Shown here in pieces: positions 5,710-21,210 of a stretch of DNA of 36,049 nucleotides. The stretch is from Flavobacteriales bacterium (lineage in GTDB: Bacteria > Bacteroidota > Bacteroidia > Flavobacteriales_D > Parvicellaceae). A program made the position numbers and the translations under genes. A model generated the notes under the pieces. That model had not been told where the DNA came from. It saw only the letters and a program-made list of their open reading frames with translations, and ran no database searches. The stretch is taken from the NCBI GenBank assembly GCA_029243855.1, contig JAQWRG010000070.1, positions 1-36,049 of the forward strand. Direction: 5' to 3'. Each line of letters starts with the position of its first letter. The stretch's first letter is position 1.

Positions 5710-6240
5710 ATGATTTCGTTTATGAGGTTAATTTTACCTTTTGTATTTATTTTAACTCTATCTGTTGGTTCTTTTTATTGTCAGGACAAAGATGCGGATG
5801 CACTACAGTTATATACCAATGGTTTAGAGCAATATAACGGTCAAAATTATGAAGATGCAATAGATCTTTACACCAAAGCGATTATCATAAACCCTAGTTT
5901 TGCTGAGGCTTATTTTCAAAGGGGGTGTGCTAAACATTATTCTGATAATTATGAAGGCGCTATAGAAGATTTTAACACTAGCATTAGTCTTCAACCAAGA
6001 AATGAACTTTTCTACAAACAAAGGGCTTCTTCTAAAACAATGTTGAAAGACTACGATGGTGCTATTTCTGATTGTGATCAAGCCATATCGCTAAAAGAAG
6101 ATTACGACAAAGCATATGCCTTGAGAGGAATACTAAAAATTGAAATGGGCGAAAAAGGCGGATGTAATGATTTAGAAAAAGCTGGTGAATACGGCTATCG
6201 CAACGCACCTATCTTTCTTAAAAAATATTGCGTAAAATAA
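5710..6240 (+). CDS. Exported tetratricopeptide repeat protein
   Basis: Signal peptide followed by TPR units (NYEDAIDLYTKAIIINPSFAEAYFQRG; NYEGAIEDFNTSISLQP; DYDGAISDCDQAI). Confidence 0.85.
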   Translation: MISFMRLILPFVFILTLSVGSFYCQDKDADALQLYTNGLEQYNGQNYEDAIDLYTKAIIINPSFAEAYFQRGCAKHYSDNYEGAIEDFNTSISLQPRNELFYKQRASSKTMLKDYDGAISDCDQAISLKEDYDKAYALRGILKIEMGEKGGCNDLEKAGEYGYRNAPIFLKKYCVK

Positions 6241-6242
6241 TC

Positions 6243-7160
6243 TTAAAAAGAAGTCATTTCTTTAAATTGATTGATTCTGTCGTCAATTTCCTCTTTATTT
6301 AAACCTTTTATTCTTTCAATACCAAATTTCTCAACTGTAAATGAAGCCATGGCTGAACCAACAATAATAGCTTTTTTCATAGATTCCCAAGTTATCTCTT
6401 CTTGACTTGAAAGGTAACCCATGAATCCTCCAGCAAATGTGTCACCAGCTCCTGTTGGATCAAACACTTCTTCTAGAAGCAACGCTGGTGCTGAGAAAAC
6501 ATTGTTGTTTTTATCAAACAGCAATGCCCCATGCTCTCCTTTTTTAATAATTAAATAAGAAGGCCCCATAGTAAGGATTTTATTTGCGGCTTTTTTAAGT
6601 GAAAATTCACCTGAAAGCAACCTAGCTTCTTCGTCATTTATGGTAAGCACATCAATTTCTTTGATTACAGCAAGCAAATCATCCAAAGCAATTTGCATCC
6701 AAAAATCCATCGTATCTAAAGCTATGAGTTTAGGACGATTTGGGAGTTGTTTTATTACGTTTAACTGAACAGCTGGAGTTAAGTTTCCTAACATTAATAG
6801 GTCACAATCAAAGTAAGATTCTGGGACAATAGGATCAAACGTTTCAAGAACGTTAAGTTGAGTATCAATTGTATCTCTAGAATTCATGTCTTGATGATAC
6901 TTTCCAGACCAAAAGAAAGTTTTTTCACCTTCTTTAATTTGTAATCCTTCTGTATCAATATTTTTTGAATGAAATAAGTCAATGGTTTCTTTCGGAAAAT
7001 CATCTCCAACAACAGATATTAACTTAGGGTTATCGTTAAAATAAGATGCCGATAAACTTATGTATGTACAAGCCCCACCTACTATTTTATCTGTTTTACC
7101 AAAAGGTGTTTCTATGGCATCAAATGCTACTGTTCCTACGCTGACTAATTTCATTTTCAA
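6243..7160 (-). CDS. PfkB family carbohydrate/nucleoside kinase
   Basis: C-terminal PfkB signature DPTGAGDTFAGGFMGYL; N-terminal GGACTYISLSASYF. Confidence 0.9.
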   Translation of the reverse strand: MKMKLVSVGTVAFDAIETPFGKTDKIVGGACTYISLSASYFNDNPKLISVVGDDFPKETIDLFHSKNIDTEGLQIKEGEKTFFWSGKYHQDMNSRDTIDTQLNVLETFDPIVPESYFDCDLLMLGNLTPAVQLNVIKQLPNRPKLIALDTMDFWMQIALDDLLAVIKEIDVLTINDEEARLLSGEFSLKKAANKILTMGPSYLIIKKGEHGALLFDKNNNVFSAPALLLEEVFDPTGAGDTFAGGFMGYLSSQEEITWESMKKAIIVGSAMASFTVEKFGIERIKGLNKEEIDDRINQFKEMTSF

Positions 7161-13025: not shown

Positions 13026-16000
13026 TCAGTCTTTGTACTGATTTTCTTTCAACCTAACTTTTATAGCCTGTAAATGCTCTTCTTTTTTAGCTGCTCTCAT
13101 TTTAATGGCCGATTTTGTAAAATACTTATGCTGCGTTAAAAACTTAACTTGTATTTCATCCCAAAGTCGATCGCTATTTATTTTACCATGATCTCTTAAT
13201 TCTCTTCTTAAAGAATCTGAAATTTCATAAAAATCATCTCTTCCTAAATAGTCTAAATCTGCATCACAAATTATTTTTTCTAATTTGTTTTTGGGTTGAT
13301 GAGGAATTATCGTAGCATATATCAATTGCTTAACCTGCTCTATTTGCTCAGGTGTATAACCGTATTTTGGTAGAATATCTTCGGCCATTTTTGCACCTAT
13401 AGGTTCGTTTTTATCGTATTCTTCAACAAAACCTGCATCGTGATAGGTTGCTGCAGATTTAAGAACAAAAATATCTTCGTCTAAAACGCCTTCCATAATA
13501 GCAATTCTCTCAACTGCTTGCACTACATCATAGGTGTGTTTAATGGAGTGATAATGTAAGTTTGGAGGAAGTTTTTCTTTAAGAATTTTCATTATATGTC
13601 TTTCAGCCTTTTTATAATTAATGCTACTGTATAGGTGAAGGTCTATATACTCTCTAAACTTTTTATTTGGTGTTATTCCTTTTCCTCTTTCGGAAAGATG
13701 AGGTTTAATTCCATCAATGAAAAACATAGCTATTTCACCAGTATTTTTTGTGGGGATTTTACCTCTATTTGTAAACTTAAAAAACGGGGCAATGTGTTCA
13801 TAAGTTGATTCAGAAACGTTTACTTTCCATGTTTCACCACTTGTCTCCATTCGTTGAGCAATATTTACCGTACTTCCCCAAATGTCGTAGGCTATTCTTT
13901 TAGACCCAATAACACCAGCAATTACGTCACCTGTATGAATTCCAATTCTTAATTCCCAAAACCCTTCTCCTCTTTTAATAGATTGCTCTTTAAGGTCGGC
14001 CATATAGCGTTGAATTTCCAATGCAGCTAAAACGCAATTAATTGGATTCTCTTTGTCTCTCAATGGAAGCCCTCCAACAGCCATATAGGCATCACCCATT
14101 GTTTTGATTTTTTCTATTTGGTGTTTTTCAATAATCTTATCGAATTCCCTAAATAAAGAATCTAAACTTTTTACCAACAAGGAAGGAGTCATGGTTTCAG
14201 CCACTTTGCTAAAGTCTTTAATGTCAGTAAACATCACTGTTGCCTTTCTATATTGCCGAGTAGTTGCAACACCCTTATTTTTCAGTTCATCTGCTGTTTC
14301 AGATGGTAAAATATTGAGCAATAGCTTATCCGCTTTTTCTTTCTCTTTTTCAATGTTTTTATTTTGAAGTTCTATTTGATCTTTTTGCTTTGTAATTGTT
14401 TTTGTTCGTCTTTCTACTAGAAATGCCAACCTTCTTTGTTGTCTTTTTATAGTTCTTACTCTTAGGATATAAATCCCCCATACAATTAAAAACGCAGCTA
14501 CTGAACTTGAAACAATAAATTCCCATGTTTTCCAATAAGGGGATGAGATATAAATTTTTACTTCTTTTGGCTCTGACCAAACACCATCGTTATTTGAAGC
14601 CCATATTTTAAATGTATAATTTCCAGATGGGATATTGGAATAATTGATGGGTTGTAATTTTTTTATCTCGAATGGTTCATCGTACAATCCTTCTAAATGG
14701 ATTTTATACTTATTACTTAATGGATCAGTAAAGTGAAGTCCAATAAAATTGATTGATAAATTATTCTGCCTACTTTTCAACGATACTGAGTCAATTGAAT
14801 AAGGATTGTCCTGTTTAATTAAGTTTTGAAAGGTGTTTGATTTTAAAACTTTAAACTCAGTTAATACAATTCTTGGTGGGGTTTTGTTTATTTCTATATT
14901 ATCAGGATTAAATACATTAAACCCATTTATTCCTCCAAAATATATTTTTCCAGCATTGCTTTTGCAATAAGCATTATTATTGAACTCATTACTCTGAAGT
15001 CCGTTTGCTTCATTAAAGTTTTTGAACTTTTCAATGGTTGGGTCAAATCGTGATATCCCAACGTTTGTACTCATCCATATCATGCCTTGATTATCAATTA
15101 CAATACCATAAATGGTATTGTTAGACAACCCATCTTCTTCGGTATAAAATTTAAATTCTTTAGTTGATGGACTAAATGTATTTAAACCGCCCCCCATTGT
15201 CCCTAACCATAAATTATTTTGATCGTCCTCACTTATAGTCAAAACTGTATTGTTGCTAATCGTTGAGGTTTCTTCTGGGTTGTAAGTATAAGTAATGGTT
15301 TTATATTTAAATTCATTTGTGCTTTCAGTCAAGTTTAATTCACACAACCCTCCCCCGTCAAAGCCTAACCAATATTTTCCTTTGGATGAAACAAAGATTC
15401 TTCGACAATCGGCATCGGGGATTGAAAATGAATTGTTTTCATCATGTGTTATTAATTGATAGGAGAAGTCTGATAGGTTAATTACCCCTACACCCTCCTT
15501 AAAAGCCGCCCATAAGCGATTTTTTGAATCAACAACAAGATCATAAGTAGGTTGATTTAATTCTGGAATATTTGGATATAACTTTTTAAATACTCCTGAT
15601 TTAAAGTCTTTATCTACTATCAATTGGTAAATACCTGAGTTTGTCGCTGTCCAAATTCGGTTTTTATCGTCTATTATAATGTCCCAAACGTCATTACTTC
15701 CTTCTTTAAGAAGGTTATCAGATATAAAAGAGTAATTTGATATTGTATTTGTAGAAAAGTCTATTCTAGACACCCCATTTCTTGTTCCAACCCATGTTTG
15801 CTGAGGGGATTGCTCAAATATTGCCCAAATGTTGTTGTCGGACATTTCTGTTTTCCCATCTAAACTATTAGAGACTAACGAGAAATTCTGTTTCAATGGG
15901 TCAAAATAAGAAATACCATATTGAGTTCCAATCCATATATTCCCAGAAAAATCTTTAACAATTTGATTGATAATATTACTAGAAATAGAGCTTAAGTCGT

Positions 16001-16856
16001 AATCGCTATTCTGATAATTTTTTACTAAAAAGTTTCCATTTATATTAGAAAGTGAGTACAACCCATCCCCTTTGGTCCCTACCCAAATTTGATTTTTTGA
16101 TTCACAAAAAACAGATGATATTACTCTGTTTTCAATACTAGAACTCAAATTAATCACATGTGATTCACTTACTACATTTACCCCCTTATTTGAGGCTATA
16201 TATAAAAGTGAATCTTCATAAAGAAAAAGATCATTAATCGATTTATTAAGAATGTAATTGTTATAAGCGGGAGTTTTTATTTTTAGTTTATCAATTACAA
16301 TTGTATTTATTCCAGCATCTGCTGTCCCAATAATAAGTAATGAATCTTTCTGAATAAGTAAATCAGTAATTCTATTGGATACTAAGCCATCATCTTTAGT
16401 GAAATGTACTAATGAATTATCTTTGTGTCTATATCTTATAACTCCGCTCTCCTCTGTTCCAAACCATAAAAAACCATCTTTATCCTCAATAATTTTTTTT
16501 ATTCTAACTCCCTCATTCAGTAGTGTATTTTCTGGTCTTTGAAATTTATCTGTAAGAGGAAGTTTGAAATTTAATCCGCCATTTTGAGTCGTTACCCAAA
16601 GTATTCCTTTAGAATCCTCATATGCGTCTAAAACATAAGAGCTGGAAAGTGTATTTTCTTTCTTAATTTGATGTTTAAAATGTACAACTTCAGCACCATC
16701 GTATCTATTCAGTCCATCCTGGGTTCCAAACCACATAAATCCAAACTGGTCTTGTGTTATGGTGTTTATTGTACTCTGGCTTAACCCCTCTTTAATAGTA
16801 AGTTTTTTAAATCTAACATTAGGATTTTGAGAAGTAATCGCTACACTTATCAACAA
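13026..16856 (-). CDS. Propeller-type sensor (Reg_prop repeats + Y_Y_Y) with TM helix, class III adenylyl cyclase and C-terminal HD phosphohydrolase domain
   Basis: Repeats of MWFGTQDGLNRYDG/LWVTTQNGGL/IWIGTQYGISYFDP; Y_Y_Y-like IPSGNYTFKIWASNNDGVWSEP; TM VSSSVAAFLIVWGIYIL; cyclase VMFTDIKDFSK, KIKTMGDAYMAVGGLP, YDIWGSTVNIAQRMETSG; HD motifs HYHSIKHTYDVV, YHDAGF, IIPHQ, CDADLDYLG. Start is TTG and uncertain. Confidence 0.9.
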   Translation of the reverse strand: MLISVAITSQNPNVRFKKLTIKEGLSQSTINTITQDQFGFMWFGTQDGLNRYDGAEVVHFKHQIKKENTLSSSYVLDAYEDSKGILWVTTQNGGLNFKLPLTDKFQRPENTLLNEGVRIKKIIEDKDGFLWFGTEESGVIRYRHKDNSLVHFTKDDGLVSNRITDLLIQKDSLLIIGTADAGINTIVIDKLKIKTPAYNNYILNKSINDLFLYEDSLLYIASNKGVNVVSESHVINLSSSIENRVISSVFCESKNQIWVGTKGDGLYSLSNINGNFLVKNYQNSDYDLSSISSNIINQIVKDFSGNIWIGTQYGISYFDPLKQNFSLVSNSLDGKTEMSDNNIWAIFEQSPQQTWVGTRNGVSRIDFSTNTISNYSFISDNLLKEGSNDVWDIIIDDKNRIWTATNSGIYQLIVDKDFKSGVFKKLYPNIPELNQPTYDLVVDSKNRLWAAFKEGVGVINLSDFSYQLITHDENNSFSIPDADCRRIFVSSKGKYWLGFDGGGLCELNLTESTNEFKYKTITYTYNPEETSTISNNTVLTISEDDQNNLWLGTMGGGLNTFSPSTKEFKFYTEEDGLSNNTIYGIVIDNQGMIWMSTNVGISRFDPTIEKFKNFNEANGLQSNEFNNNAYCKSNAGKIYFGGINGFNVFNPDNIEINKTPPRIVLTEFKVLKSNTFQNLIKQDNPYSIDSVSLKSRQNNLSINFIGLHFTDPLSNKYKIHLEGLYDEPFEIKKLQPINYSNIPSGNYTFKIWASNNDGVWSEPKEVKIYISSPYWKTWEFIVSSSVAAFLIVWGIYILRVRTIKRQQRRLAFLVERRTKTITKQKDQIELQNKNIEKEKEKADKLLLNILPSETADELKNKGVATTRQYRKATVMFTDIKDFSKVAETMTPSLLVKSLDSLFREFDKIIEKHQIEKIKTMGDAYMAVGGLPLRDKENPINCVLAALEIQRYMADLKEQSIKRGEGFWELRIGIHTGDVIAGVIGSKRIAYDIWGSTVNIAQRMETSGETWKVNVSESTYEHIAPFFKFTNRGKIPTKNTGEIAMFFIDGIKPHLSERGKGITPNKKFREYIDLHLYSSINYKKAERHIMKILKEKLPPNLHYHSIKHTYDVVQAVERIAIMEGVLDEDIFVLKSAATYHDAGFVEEYDKNEPIGAKMAEDILPKYGYTPEQIEQVKQLIYATIIPHQPKNKLEKIICDADLDYLGRDDFYEISDSLRRELRDHGKINSDRLWDEIQVKFLTQHKYFTKSAIKMRAAKKEEHLQAIKVRLKENQYKD

Positions 16857-16909
16857 AAATGAGCAACAAAATATTTTTTTTAATGTTTCGATAGGAAATG
16901 ATTTAAGTG

Positions 16910-18736
16910 TTAAACTTTAACTCCCATCACTAAAATATCATCAATTTGATCAAGTGATCCTCTCCATGCTTCTATTTTTTGATCAAGAAGAACTTTTTGA
17001 GTTTCCATAGGCTCATGACTTATAGCTAAAAGAGTTTCCTTAAATTGTCTGTACATGAATTTTTTACCTTTTAACCCTCCAAATTGATCGGCATAACCAT
17101 CAGAAAAAAGATAAATTACATCTCCTTTTTTTACGTCTAACGTAAATGTTTGATAATTTTTTGTTCCTGGATCAAAAGAACCAATGGCAAATTTATCAGT
17201 TTTAAAAATTTGAAGCTCGTTATCTCTAATAAGGTAAAGTGGGTTATAGGCACCTGAAAATTGAATTTTATTCTTCTTTCTATTCAGTGAACATATAGAT
17301 ATATCCATTCCGTCTCTAATGGCATTTTCATCTCCTGTTTTGTTAAGTGATTCACTTGCATATTTATTTAAGTCATCTAAAATGGGGCCCGTCTGAGCTA
17401 AACTATGTTCTGTTACTGCAGACTTCAATCCGTTAGCCCCAACCAAACTCATAAATGCTCCAGGGACTCCATGTCCAGTGCAATCAACAGAAGCAAAAAT
17501 CATTTCATCTTTAATGTTATGCACCCAATAAAAATCACCTGATACAATGTCTTTTGGCTTAAATAAAACGAAAGATGATGGGAATAATTTCTTTATATAT
17601 CTATCTGGTGGCAGAATAGAATCTTGTAATCTTTTTGCATATCTAATGCTATCGGTTACATCTGTATACAATTCTTCTAATTTTGATTTTTGATTATCAA
17701 TTTCATCTTTTTGCCTAACAACTTCTTCTGTTCTTTCTTTCACTTTTTGTTCAAGAATTCTTTCCGTTTCGGCTAGTTCGTCCTTCATTTTTAGAAGAGC
17801 ATGCCCCAAAACATCGTCATCACTTAAAGGTTGATAAGGATATTTAAAATTACTTTGCCCAACTTCATGAGCAAACTGAGTAGTTTCTTTAAGTCCTTTA
17901 ACCAATGTGTTCATTGCTACAGACATTTCCCCAATTTCATCATTACTTGGCTCAATCTCATGAGAGGGGAAAACACCACTTCCAAGATTTATTAAAATTC
18001 TTTTTAATCGCTGAACTGGTTTTGTAATACTTAAAGTGGTGAAAAAGGCAATGATAAAGGTACCTATAAGCAATATAATTCCTACAAAGAAAATAGCCTT
18101 TGAAAGTCTTGAAAACTTATAATTTGTTGATTTAAATGACTGGTTACTGTCTTTTTGCTGTTTCTTTGCAATGTTTGATCTAATTTCAATTAAATCATCA
18201 ATTTGACTAGATACATCTTGAAGAAGGGGCATGACTTCTAGCTCTAATGCAGACTTAGATATGAAAGTTGCTGTTGGATCATCGTAACTTTCAAAATCAA
18301 CCAATTGTTCTCGAATTGAAAAATTATACATATCAATCAAGTCAAAAATACTGTTACTAATAAGGTCGTAGGTTGTTTTTCCAATTTGGGTAGACGACCA
18401 TTTATCTGAAAGCGTATCTAATATGCGTAAATCATTTATTAGCGTTTCATCTAATAAAACACTTGCCTTTATTTTATACTGCTCATCAGATCTTGATTGA
18501 TCGTTGCACCATTTTTGCATGTAATTGTGCGTTTCAGATAAGTTGTCTTTTAGGTGATTAATTTCAAAAAGAGAAGGTTGGTCAACAGTCAAAAACTTAT
18601 CATTAGACTCTATACTTCTTTCTAACGTTTGCTTAGCATTTGAAACCACGGAATAGGTTACGCTAAATACAATAAGAAGCAATAGGACAACTATACCAAA
18701 ACCAAAACCTATTTTTGTTCCAACGTTAAATCTCAA
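16910..18736 (-). CDS. Membrane sensor protein with HAMP domain and PP2C-type SpoIIE/RsbU serine phosphatase output
   Basis: N-term TM, helical periplasmic region, second TM, HAMP (TKPVQRLKRILINLGSG...DEIGEMSVAMNTLV), coiled coil, SpoIIE (IRYAKRLQDSILPP, KPKDIVSGDFYWV, ASVDCTGHGVPGAFMSLVG, DGYADQFGG). Confidence 0.92.
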   Translation of the reverse strand: MRFNVGTKIGFGFGIVVLLLLIVFSVTYSVVSNAKQTLERSIESNDKFLTVDQPSLFEINHLKDNLSETHNYMQKWCNDQSRSDEQYKIKASVLLDETLINDLRILDTLSDKWSSTQIGKTTYDLISNSIFDLIDMYNFSIREQLVDFESYDDPTATFISKSALELEVMPLLQDVSSQIDDLIEIRSNIAKKQQKDSNQSFKSTNYKFSRLSKAIFFVGIILLIGTFIIAFFTTLSITKPVQRLKRILINLGSGVFPSHEIEPSNDEIGEMSVAMNTLVKGLKETTQFAHEVGQSNFKYPYQPLSDDDVLGHALLKMKDELAETERILEQKVKERTEEVVRQKDEIDNQKSKLEELYTDVTDSIRYAKRLQDSILPPDRYIKKLFPSSFVLFKPKDIVSGDFYWVHNIKDEMIFASVDCTGHGVPGAFMSLVGANGLKSAVTEHSLAQTGPILDDLNKYASESLNKTGDENAIRDGMDISICSLNRKKNKIQFSGAYNPLYLIRDNELQIFKTDKFAIGSFDPGTKNYQTFTLDVKKGDVIYLFSDGYADQFGGLKGKKFMYRQFKETLLAISHEPMETQKVLLDQKIEAWRGSLDQIDDILVMGVKV

Positions 18737-18742
18737 TGTTGT

Positions 18743-19663
18743 TTAATTTTTTTGAATTTGTGTTTCAGCATTTAATTTCTTTAAAATGTTGGCATACTTA
18801 ACATAGTTTTCCATTTCATTTAAACTGTAATATACCGCAACTATACCTTGAATTATTGACTTGTCATTAGGCTTAACTTTATAAGCTCTTTTAAGAAATG
18901 GTAAAGAAGTTGAAAAATACTCAATGGCTAGTTCTTCCATCATGATAACTTTTTCTAGTTCAGCATCGTCAGCAAGTTCTTCTAAAATCAAATCAACTCC
19001 AAGATTGTGATAAATTATACCCGTATTATAATTTGCACTATAATTTACTGAATCAATAACTAAGGTGTTTTTGTAACATGCTAGGGCCTTATCTAAATAT
19101 TCTTTTCTATGGTCTTTTTTATTGCTGTACTTCATTCTGTAAATTGAAGCCATGGCGTTGTTAAAATCAATGTCTTTTTTATCGAAATTATAATTGGGGT
19201 GAATAAACCTTTTTAATGACTTATACATGTTGAAGTATATTTCAGATTCTTTGTAGTGTATGGTATCTACATACAAAACAGCATCGTTATAATAGCTATT
19301 TGAAAGATAATCAAGAACTTTAATGTTATTATCAATGTATTGTTCTTTTTCATCTAGTGCTAAAGATTTTTTAAACGACTCTATTGAAATAGTCCTTGCT
19401 TTCGATATTGGAGACCTATTGTCAACATACTTAAAAATATCAAAGTGAATGAACCCACTTAAGTACCAATAATATGGGTTTTCTTTTTGATTTGGACATG
19501 CTGATAAAACACTATCCAACATAACTTTAGCCTTGTTATAATCTTTTTCTTTATAATACTTATTCAACAGTACTTTTTCAGGACAATTTTCAAATTGTCC
19601 ATGAACACTATTGAATAGTGAACAAATGAATGCTAAAAGTGCTATTTTAAGTATTCTTATCAT
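18743..19663 (-). CDS. Exported TPR-like protein
   Basis: Signal peptide; TPR-like helices (SANYNTGIIYHNLGVDLI; LPFLKRAYKVKPNDKSIIQGIVAVYYSL); coupled by ATGA overlap to the upstream YfiR-like gene. Confidence 0.7.
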   Translation of the reverse strand: MIRILKIALLAFICSLFNSVHGQFENCPEKVLLNKYYKEKDYNKAKVMLDSVLSACPNQKENPYYWYLSGFIHFDIFKYVDNRSPISKARTISIESFKKSLALDEKEQYIDNNIKVLDYLSNSYYNDAVLYVDTIHYKESEIYFNMYKSLKRFIHPNYNFDKKDIDFNNAMASIYRMKYSNKKDHRKEYLDKALACYKNTLVIDSVNYSANYNTGIIYHNLGVDLILEELADDAELEKVIMMEELAIEYFSTSLPFLKRAYKVKPNDKSIIQGIVAVYYSLNEMENYVKYANILKKLNAETQIQKN

Positions 19664-20187
19664 ATAATTTTGTATGCCAATTTTGTTAAATTTTGACCTA
19701 CTTTAAGGTGGTGTTGTTCTGCTTTAGTTTTATTCAATTCATACTTTAATTTACTGTCTTTAAAGATAAAGTTAATAATTGCTCCTGATGAAGCCAAATT
19801 TGAGCTTTCGGAAACCATTAAAGTTTGCTCGTCAACGTTCTTATTTATTTGATTAATGGCCCCATTTTTTGATGCGCTAATAAATAAAATATGGCAATTT
19901 TTTAACTCAGACAAATTAGAACAATACTTAACCTTAATGGTTTGACTTCCAATTAATTTATTGGTGTAAGAATTACTAAACTGTTTATAAACGTTTTCAT
20001 CTCCATAAACGCCTATAATTAAATCTCCCTTTGAAAATTCTTCCGGCCATACTACGCCTCTTGCAAATTGATACATGTAAATTCCTTTAAGTTTTATCTT
20101 AGCAGCAGAGGCGTCTCCCATTTGTCCAAATCCGGAAAATGTAAAAGCAGTTATAAAAACTAATGCTATAATAAATTTACTTTTCAA
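19660..20187 (-). CDS. YfiR family (DUF4154) periplasmic protein
   Basis: Signal peptide; KGIYMYQFARGVVWPEE, LIIGVYGD, CHILFISASK, SGAIINFIFKDSKLKYELN and LKVGQNLTKLAYKI match the YfiR pattern. Confidence 0.87.
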   Translation of the reverse strand: MKSKFIIALVFITAFTFSGFGQMGDASAAKIKLKGIYMYQFARGVVWPEEFSKGDLIIGVYGDENVYKQFSNSYTNKLIGSQTIKVKYCSNLSELKNCHILFISASKNGAINQINKNVDEQTLMVSESSNLASSGAIINFIFKDSKLKYELNKTKAEQHHLKVGQNLTKLAYKII

Positions 20188-20252: not shown

Positions 20253-20678
20253 TTAACCATATTTATATTGAAACTTAAAATGTTTCTCCCTGCTTTTTTG
20301 AGCCATTTTCTTAACCTTTGCTTTATCGTACTTATCTCTTATCGCTCTTTTTCGTTGTGAATAACTGAAAGAATCTTTATCAACTCCTGTAGGTCTATAA
20401 CTAGATTTATTTCCAGAAATAAAAGGGTCTTCGCCTAGCCCAACTGTTCCTTTGGGAAACCTCAAAGAATCAAATGGATTTTTATGCTTAATCACATAAT
20501 TATTTGTTTTGTTTCCAATGGAAAACAAACCCTTATTGTTGTTTTTTTTTACCCTGTGCGATCTTTTTTTTGATGTAAAAGGGTCTCTATATTGTCCGTG
20601 AACGGCTGAATAACTAAATAGCATTAGAAATAAAACCGTCAAAACATTAAAAATGTATTTGACTTTTATAGATTTCAT
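20253..20678 (-). CDS. Hypothetical small basic exported protein
   Basis: 141 aa with clear signal peptide; Lys/Arg-rich; repeated DPF/NPF motifs (RDPFTSK, KNPFDS, EDPFIS). No family recognised. Confidence 0.65.
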   Translation of the reverse strand: MKSIKVKYIFNVLTVLFLMLFSYSAVHGQYRDPFTSKKRSHRVKKNNNKGLFSIGNKTNNYVIKHKNPFDSLRFPKGTVGLGEDPFISGNKSSYRPTGVDKDSFSYSQRKRAIRDKYDKAKVKKMAQKSREKHFKFQYKYG

Positions 20679-20686
20679 AAAATATA

Positions 20687-21190
20687 TTACCCCCCTGTGG
20701 AAGCAGAAATATCTTTTAAATCTCTATCAAAAAGATACAACCCTCCCTTATCTTCACCTATCATGTTTAATTTATCAATAGTTGTTCGAGCTAGAGCTTC
20801 CTCTTCCAATTGCTCAGCCACATACCATTGCATGAAATTATGAGTTGTAAAGTCTTTTTCATCTAAACAAAGGCCAACAATATTATTAATACTTTCTGTA
20901 ACATTTATTTCATGTTCTAAAAGACATTCAAAAACATGAGTAATAGAATCAAATGTAGTTGGTGGTTTTATTAACGCTGGGATTACTGCTGTACCACCTC
21001 TTTCGTTGATGAATTTAATCAATTTAAGCATGTGCATTCTTTCTTCATCACTATGTTGATATAAAAAAGATGATGTTCCATTGAGACCTTGCGATTCAGT
21101 CCAAGAAGCCATTGATAAATAGAACTGAGAAGACGAGGCTTCTAATTCAATTTGCTTGTTAAGCGCTTTTTCAATAATTGATTTTAACAT
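20687..21190 (-). CDS. Ferritin
   Basis: IEKALNKQIELEASSSQFYLSMASW, HSDEERMHMLKLIKFINERGG and MQWYVAEQLEEEALA. ATG at 21190 (MLKSIIEKAL) preferred over the ORF-track TTG at 21205, which lies inside a candidate -7 box. Confidence 0.92.
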   Translation of the reverse strand: MLKSIIEKALNKQIELEASSSQFYLSMASWTESQGLNGTSSFLYQHSDEERMHMLKLIKFINERGGTAVIPALIKPPTTFDSITHVFECLLEHEINVTESINNIVGLCLDEKDFTTHNFMQWYVAEQLEEEALARTTIDKLNMIGEDKGGLYLFDRDLKDISASTGG

Positions 21191-21202
21191 TGGTTTTTTT
21201 TT

Positions 21203-21210
21203 CAAATGTA
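21203..21210 (-). promoter_or_regulatory. Candidate Bacteroidota -7 box (TACATTTG) upstream of ferritin
   Basis: Minus-strand TACATTTG matches TAnnTTTG, 13 nt upstream of the ATG at 21190; -33 element not clear. Confidence 0.45.

Follow-up and report, generated by a model that had tools for sequence, protein, structure and literature searches.

A propeller-sensor class III cyclase carrying an HD module: a candidate self-limiting receptor cyclase in Flavobacteriales

A contig of a marine Flavobacteriales bacterium (JAQWRG010000070.1, assembly GCA_029243855.1), 36,049 nucleotides long and henceforth referred to as the window, contains a gene that joins a sensor, a class III nucleotide cyclase and an HD-type phosphohydrolase module in one predicted chain. 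The question raised by this locus is what such a protein makes and what its HD module does with the product. The answer favored here, with rather more confidence than doubt, is that the protein is a single-pass inner-membrane receptor adenylyl cyclase (AC) with a built-in phosphodiesterase (PDE)-like off-switch. The domain order, the intact catalytic residues of both enzymes, the conservation of the fusion and a recurrent association of HD modules with cyclases are directly observed and carry this reading.

Domain order, cyclase and conservation of the fusion

The gene and its domains, all on the minus strand, are as follows.

13026-16856, minus: whole gene, 1276 aa from a TTG codon; Reg_prop propeller, Y_Y_Y, transmembrane (TM) helix, coiled coil, class III cyclase, HD
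14787-16832, minus: Reg_prop beta-propeller sensor, limits approximate (Pfam PF07494, E 3e-36)
14547-14732, minus: Y_Y_Y domain, residues 709-770 (Pfam PF07495, E 4.5e-9)
14463-14519, minus: TM helix, residues 780-798, at the hydropathy maximum; the single clear TM helix in the chain
14271-14459, minus: putative coiled-coil or signaling helix, residues 800-862, suggested by a charged, heptad-like composition
13713-14258, minus: class III nucleotide cyclase domain, residues 867-1048 (PF00211, Guanylate_cyc, E 5e-49; residue conservation; fold match 5o5l)
13029-13697, minus: HD-domain module, residues 1054-1276, Pfam core 1105-1200 (PF01966, E 3e-6; invariant residues; confident structure model)

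This architecture had been proposed in a preliminary description of the locus and is borne out by Pfam and hydropathy. All four Pfam domains (Reg_prop, Y_Y_Y, Guanylate_cyc and HD) score over their gathering cut-offs, and the profile searches for the cyclase and HD domains, whose failure the description had named as grounds for giving up the proposal, recovered both with the E-values listed above. Misassigned or chance domains are ruled out by these E-values together with conservation across hundreds of genomes. No HisKA or HATPase match was found in the chain using Pfam, which places the protein outside the hybrid two-component systems with a histidine kinase output.

All six canonical residues of the cyclase are present: the metal-binding D878 and D922, the adenine-specifying K918 and D991, and the transition-state residues N998 and R1002. 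The two metal aspartates and the ATP-type Lys/Asp pair are those that the preliminary description had pointed out. Each of the six is kept in 36-37 of 37 aligned cyclase-bearing relatives. Alignment with the C2 domain of mammalian AC9 showed the common motifs IEKIKT(I/M)G and YDIWGxTVNIAxRM, in which the adenylyl-type K/D pair is matched. The AlphaFold2 (AF2) model of the domain has a predicted local distance difference test (pLDDT) score of 91.9 and was matched by Foldseek to the bacterial adenylyl cyclase 5o5l (E 1.6e-20). With PF00211 over cut-off, a class III fold and the full residue set, the domain belongs to the class III adenylyl cyclases. Degenerate catalytic sites are ruled out by residue conservation, both here and in the HD module. 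The residue pattern argues strongly for an active cyclase, which we take from established class III cyclase knowledge to be an ATP-specific homodimer, and cyclic AMP (cAMP) is the expected product because all six canonical residues are present.

The fusion is widespread in the order. The source genome (1.57 Mb in 131 contigs, 73.8% complete), whose closest named relatives are Crocinitomicaceae metagenome-assembled genomes, contains no PF00211 match other than this cyclase. A query with the HD module was matched in 210 of the 299 genomes of the order, and among the best 150 matches listed 119 lie in frames of at least 1245 aa, the size of the full architecture. The remainder are mostly about 530 aa long; this short form is a TM-cyclase-HD protein devoid of the propeller (L059, L140). 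The short form is found in places directly 3' of a ferritin gene and, because it adjoins ferritin, the sensor was lost and not split off. PF00211 cyclases occur in 33 of the 39 genomes of the window's family, and nearly all of these carry exactly one, as the full protein or the shorter form. A recent accidental fusion confined to one genome is ruled out by this order-wide occurrence. Phage or mobile cargo was also rejected, as a single weak, cyclase-only match was obtained among 50,697 phage records.

Coupling of a Reg_prop sensor to a cyclase is wider than the fusion itself. Proteins of about 980-1000 aa in other Bacteroidota families (L190, L191, L192) resemble the window protein in sensor and cyclase but lack the HD module. 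The contrast drawn in the preliminary description between a one-piece protein and the two-component systems is thus fair, but it is not peculiar to the HD fusion.

Residues, fold and partners of the HD module

Comparison of 126 HD copies from nine architectures identified ten invariant residues: H1103, H1107, H1139, D1140, E1151, T1182, D1198, D1200, E1219 and T1247. These form an H...HD...D pattern with an H-x3-H start which, together with the PF01966 match, places the module in the HD phosphohydrolase superfamily. Of the motif proposed beforehand, H1107, H1139-D1140 and D1198/D1200 proved to be invariant, but H1186 in its IIPHQ segment is not conserved. The latter position is H in 75 and Q in 38 of the 126 copies, so H1186 probably does not serve as a ligand in all copies. 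Extra histidines typify HD-GYP and other polynuclear HD enzymes (PMC8177086), the HD-GYP signature being H...HD...H...HH...D plus GYP. Assignment as an HD-GYP c-di-GMP phosphodiesterase was rejected, as the window HD has no HD_5 match and the extra His is not conserved.

The AF2 model of the module (pLDDT 94.6) was closest by Foldseek to 2pq7 and Bacillus subtilis YpgQ, followed by human PDE5 and PDE4; past the YpgQ-type entries, nearly all remaining top matches are class I cyclic nucleotide monophosphate (cNMP) PDEs. The PDE5 and PDE4 matches, ranked behind the YpgQ-type entries, are weak (E 0.004-0.04, TM-score about 0.5-0.65). A search of solved structures using the window HD sequence alone returned no match, and profiles were required; where single HD sequences were used as queries of structures, YpgQ-type matches ranked first. 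With a 50-member HD profile, too, structures of the YedJ/YpgQ type led (E 6e-11 to 5e-5), and the class I enzymes PDE5, PDE8, PDE9, PDE7, PDE10 and PDEB1 followed (E 0.003-0.2), with HD-GYP proteins and one Cas10 interspersed. When the 50 HDs were compared singly to Pfam, 17 matched PDEase_I (PF00233; E<=0.1, best 2.4e-4), compared to one each for YfbR-like and HD_5. By fold and profile, the module thus falls between pyrophosphatases of the YpgQ type and cyclic-nucleotide PDEs of class I. It is termed PDE-like here, and not a PDE, because YpgQ-type structures come first and the window HD has no PDEase_I match.

HD-cyclase fusions take five architectures in Bacteroidota, the window type and four others. 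REC-cyclase-HD proteins are found at L130, L131 and L134, and a kinase-AAA-GAF-cyclase-HD protein at L169. In N-terminally coiled proteins (L128, 1489-2871, minus strand; L132, 748-2145, plus strand) the cyclase is degenerate, having lost the first metal Asp, and the HD is intact; these could be pure hydrolases or nucleotide sensors. The module is also fused to TIR-TPR (L170, L171), to YitT (L147, L148, L159, L173) and to PycTM, for example at L125 (892-2103, minus), L136 (1486-2655, plus) and L154 (1477-2718, plus). Frames of HD-PycTM size (about 400 aa) account for much of the phylum-wide HD matches, also in genomes without a PF00211 cyclase. The module also stands alone, often adjoining a cyclase gene. 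On the HD tree the cyclase label requires at least four changes, and a single clade of cyclase-fused HDs was rejected by the approximately unbiased (AU) test (p-AU 1.4e-4; 0.03 without the two most distant types). The HD is a separate mobile module.

Association with cyclases was observed in gene order as well as in fusions. At L186 (4347-5810), two cyclase genes, an HD gene and a YitT gene follow one another in the same direction, separated by 9, 40 and 7 nt, and at L171, L187, L188 and L194 a cyclase gene adjoins an HD gene or lies within about 1.1 kb of it. In a genome set hand-picked by HD status, PF00211 cyclases were present in 10 of 10 genomes with a non-PycTM HD versus 5 of 20 HD-negative genomes (Fisher p 2e-4), and in 9 of 20 HD-PycTM genomes, which does not differ from the HD-negative set (p 0.32). 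The solo and fused HD types are therefore strongly linked to class III cyclases, and for HD-PycTM such a link is not established, given co-occurrence of 10/10 and 9/20, respectively.

Competing readings of the HD module

In the mechanism favored here, a periplasmic ligand or partner would act on the propeller/Y_Y_Y sensor, and the TM helix and coiled coil would set the geometry of a class III cyclase homodimer that converts ATP to cAMP. The HD module of the same chain would then either hydrolyze the cyclic nucleotide (conversion of cAMP to 5'-AMP being the likeliest case) or be tuned by it, and the outcome would be a local, self-limited pulse or threshold. The cAMP product, the HD substrate, the direction of regulation and the ligand are elements that we infer, and the substrate is assigned from context and fold. 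Hydrolysis of a cyclic nucleotide by the HD had been suggested in the preliminary description, the observations of which are confirmed and the interpretation of which is partly supported. Fusion and adjacency to cyclases, likeness to class I PDEs and the invariant catalytic residues all speak indirectly for it, while the nearest single folds are of the YpgQ type.

A broader proposal is made tentatively, at slightly less than even confidence. The HD module of about 200 aa may represent an unrecognized bacterial family of class I-like cNMP PDEs that serves as the standard off-switch of Bacteroidota class III cyclases, fused here into a bifunctional TM cAMP receptor and elsewhere to PycTM, with a cAMP reader of unrecognized type in this genus.

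Several observations weigh against a cNMP PDE. The individual structures most similar to the module are YpgQ/YedJ-type HD proteins, and YpgQ acts as a (d)NTP diphosphatase (PMC8177086). A PF00233 match was absent for the window HD itself, and the PDE matches, besides being weak, come from structures over-represented in the PDB. The co-occurrence figures derive from genomes chosen by hand. The module also occurs in TIR-TPR fusions and in PycTM fusions, and 11 of the 20 HD-PycTM genomes lack a PF00211 cyclase; because of these partners, the HD may act in some proteins on something other than a class III product. Finally, neither the window genome nor G050, a congener 95% complete, has a PF00027 cNMP-binding protein over cut-off, although 137 of the order's 146 good genomes have such proteins. 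None of the 39 genomes of the window's family contains PycTM. The effector either is of an unrecognized type or is encoded in sequence that the assemblies lack.

The first of these points bears on the most serious alternative, in which the HD is not a cNMP PDE but a YpgQ-like nucleotide pyrophosphatase; acting on ATP, dNTPs or another nucleotide, it would limit the substrate of the cyclase or produce a signal of its own. Since no single fold match is nearer than the YpgQ-type structures, such NTP/dNTP hydrolysis keeps a minor but appreciable share of probability. The module combines the H-x3-H...HD...D pattern with the YpgQ fold, and the common motif extends to H-x3-H...HD...DAD in YpgQ and YedJ, whose structures lead both the fold and the profile rankings. 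However, a general NTP housekeeper would not be expected to occur time and again fused or next to cyclases and the cNMP effector domain PycTM, and PDE5/4/9-type enzymes rank next in both the fold and the profile searches. YpgQ and YedJ differ from the window HD in being stand-alone proteins, and to our knowledge these pyrophosphatase-like proteins have no link to cyclases.

It is improbable that the HD is an allosteric or structural module that binds a nucleotide, perhaps the product, and regulates the cyclase with little catalysis of its own. In Rel and similar bifunctional HD enzymes, opposing domains work allosterically, and retention of the HD beside the degenerate cyclases of L128 and L132 agrees with such a role. 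However, a structural role does not require the putative metal and catalytic residues, all of which are invariant in the 126 copies. Membership in an anti-phage Pycsar-like system, in place of an environmental receptor role, is very improbable: PADLOC PycC models do match the cyclase (E 1.2e-18) and the HD is joined to PycTM elsewhere, but PycTM is lacking from the genome and the whole family, the Pfam-scanned genes flanking the cyclase in the window include no PycTM or PycTIR effector, and vertical order-wide conservation, a secreted-type sensor, a stable operon and canonical adenylyl K/D residues all argue otherwise.

For the PDE-like off-switch favored here, the nearest precedent is CAPE (COMBINED AC with PDE) of Marchantia polymorpha and other streptophytes, in which AC and PDE share one chain and both are active as recombinant domains (PMC5159850, PMC8115329). 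CAPE thus demonstrates that the combination is feasible in plants. Like the window protein, CAPE unites a class III adenylyl cyclase with an HD-superfamily domain. The order is reversed, the PDE of CAPE being N-terminal and its AC C-terminal, and CAPE has no propeller or Y_Y_Y and carries a genuine class I PDE, whereas the window HD belongs to a distinct bacterial PDE-like subfamily. Class I PDEs (PDE1-11, PDEB1) may share the fold of the module and have in common with it the H...HD...D metal motif and, in many members, a Y-H-N/S-x2-H start, but comprise 320 aa compared to about 220 aa, and sequence similarity is weak. The Reg_prop/Y_Y_Y hybrid two-component systems of Bacteroidota resemble the window protein in the sensor half, the single TM and the dimerizing helix, but end in a histidine kinase and regulator where the window protein has a cyclase and HD. 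HD-PycTM proteins (Pycsar effector domain PF18967) contain the same HD module, placed N-terminal to a two-TM effector in a chain without a cyclase.

No description of a bacterial propeller-cyclase-HD architecture was found in the open-access papers searched. cAMP signaling is little explored in Bacteroidota, and an early census counted no adenylyl cyclase in any of the four genomes that it covered (PMC1183210). The cyclase described here, nearly always the sole PF00211 member in genomes of its family, offers a single gene for probing the role of cAMP, and a genus without a recognized cNMP receptor makes the effector question directly testable. Receptor class III cyclases are already known; that the HD module is an unrecognized bacterial cNMP PDE family is a real possibility. 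If so, a widespread unannotated enzyme family would gain a name, HD-PycTM proteins linked to anti-phage signaling would gain a function, and plant CAPE would have a bacterial counterpart.

Gene start and neighboring genes

The called start, TTG at 16856, gives a signal peptide without its basic part. Upstream of it the frame stays open through ...KKIFCCSFLLISV (window 16856-16920), which aligns with the start of a 94%-identical homologue, L032 (MLKKILFCILLISS); the Met of the homologue aligns with an ACA codon upstream of the TTG. Because the open upstream frame aligns with the L032 start, translation probably begins at a non-standard codon about ten codons before the TTG, unless the assembly contains a base error.

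The gene is the last of a same-strand run, the other members of which are listed here from the nearest outward.

16910-18736, minus: HAMP-SpoIIE (PP2C-type) membrane phosphatase (Pfam; conserved synteny)
18743-19663, minus: exported TPR protein (Pfam; synteny)
19660-20187, minus: YfiR/HmsC-like periplasmic protein, DUF4154 (Pfam; synteny)
20253-20678, minus: 141-aa conserved protein between the ferritin and YfiR-like genes (no Pfam match; synteny)
20687-21205, minus: non-haem ferritin, first gene of the run (Pfam, E 2.5e-39)

A scan of this operon for promoters and terminators performed no better than on shuffled sequences. The run is kept in the close relatives L032 and L034-L037, and also in L045-L047 without a detected 141-aa gene. 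Of the 48 loci that extend far enough, 25 have a ferritin gene in the same orientation upstream of the cyclase-HD gene, in many cases at a distance of 18-60 nt, and 10 have the SpoIIE gene there. At L091, a solo HD gene (5935-6525) fills the slot of the cyclase-HD gene behind ferritin, YfiR, TPR and SpoIIE.

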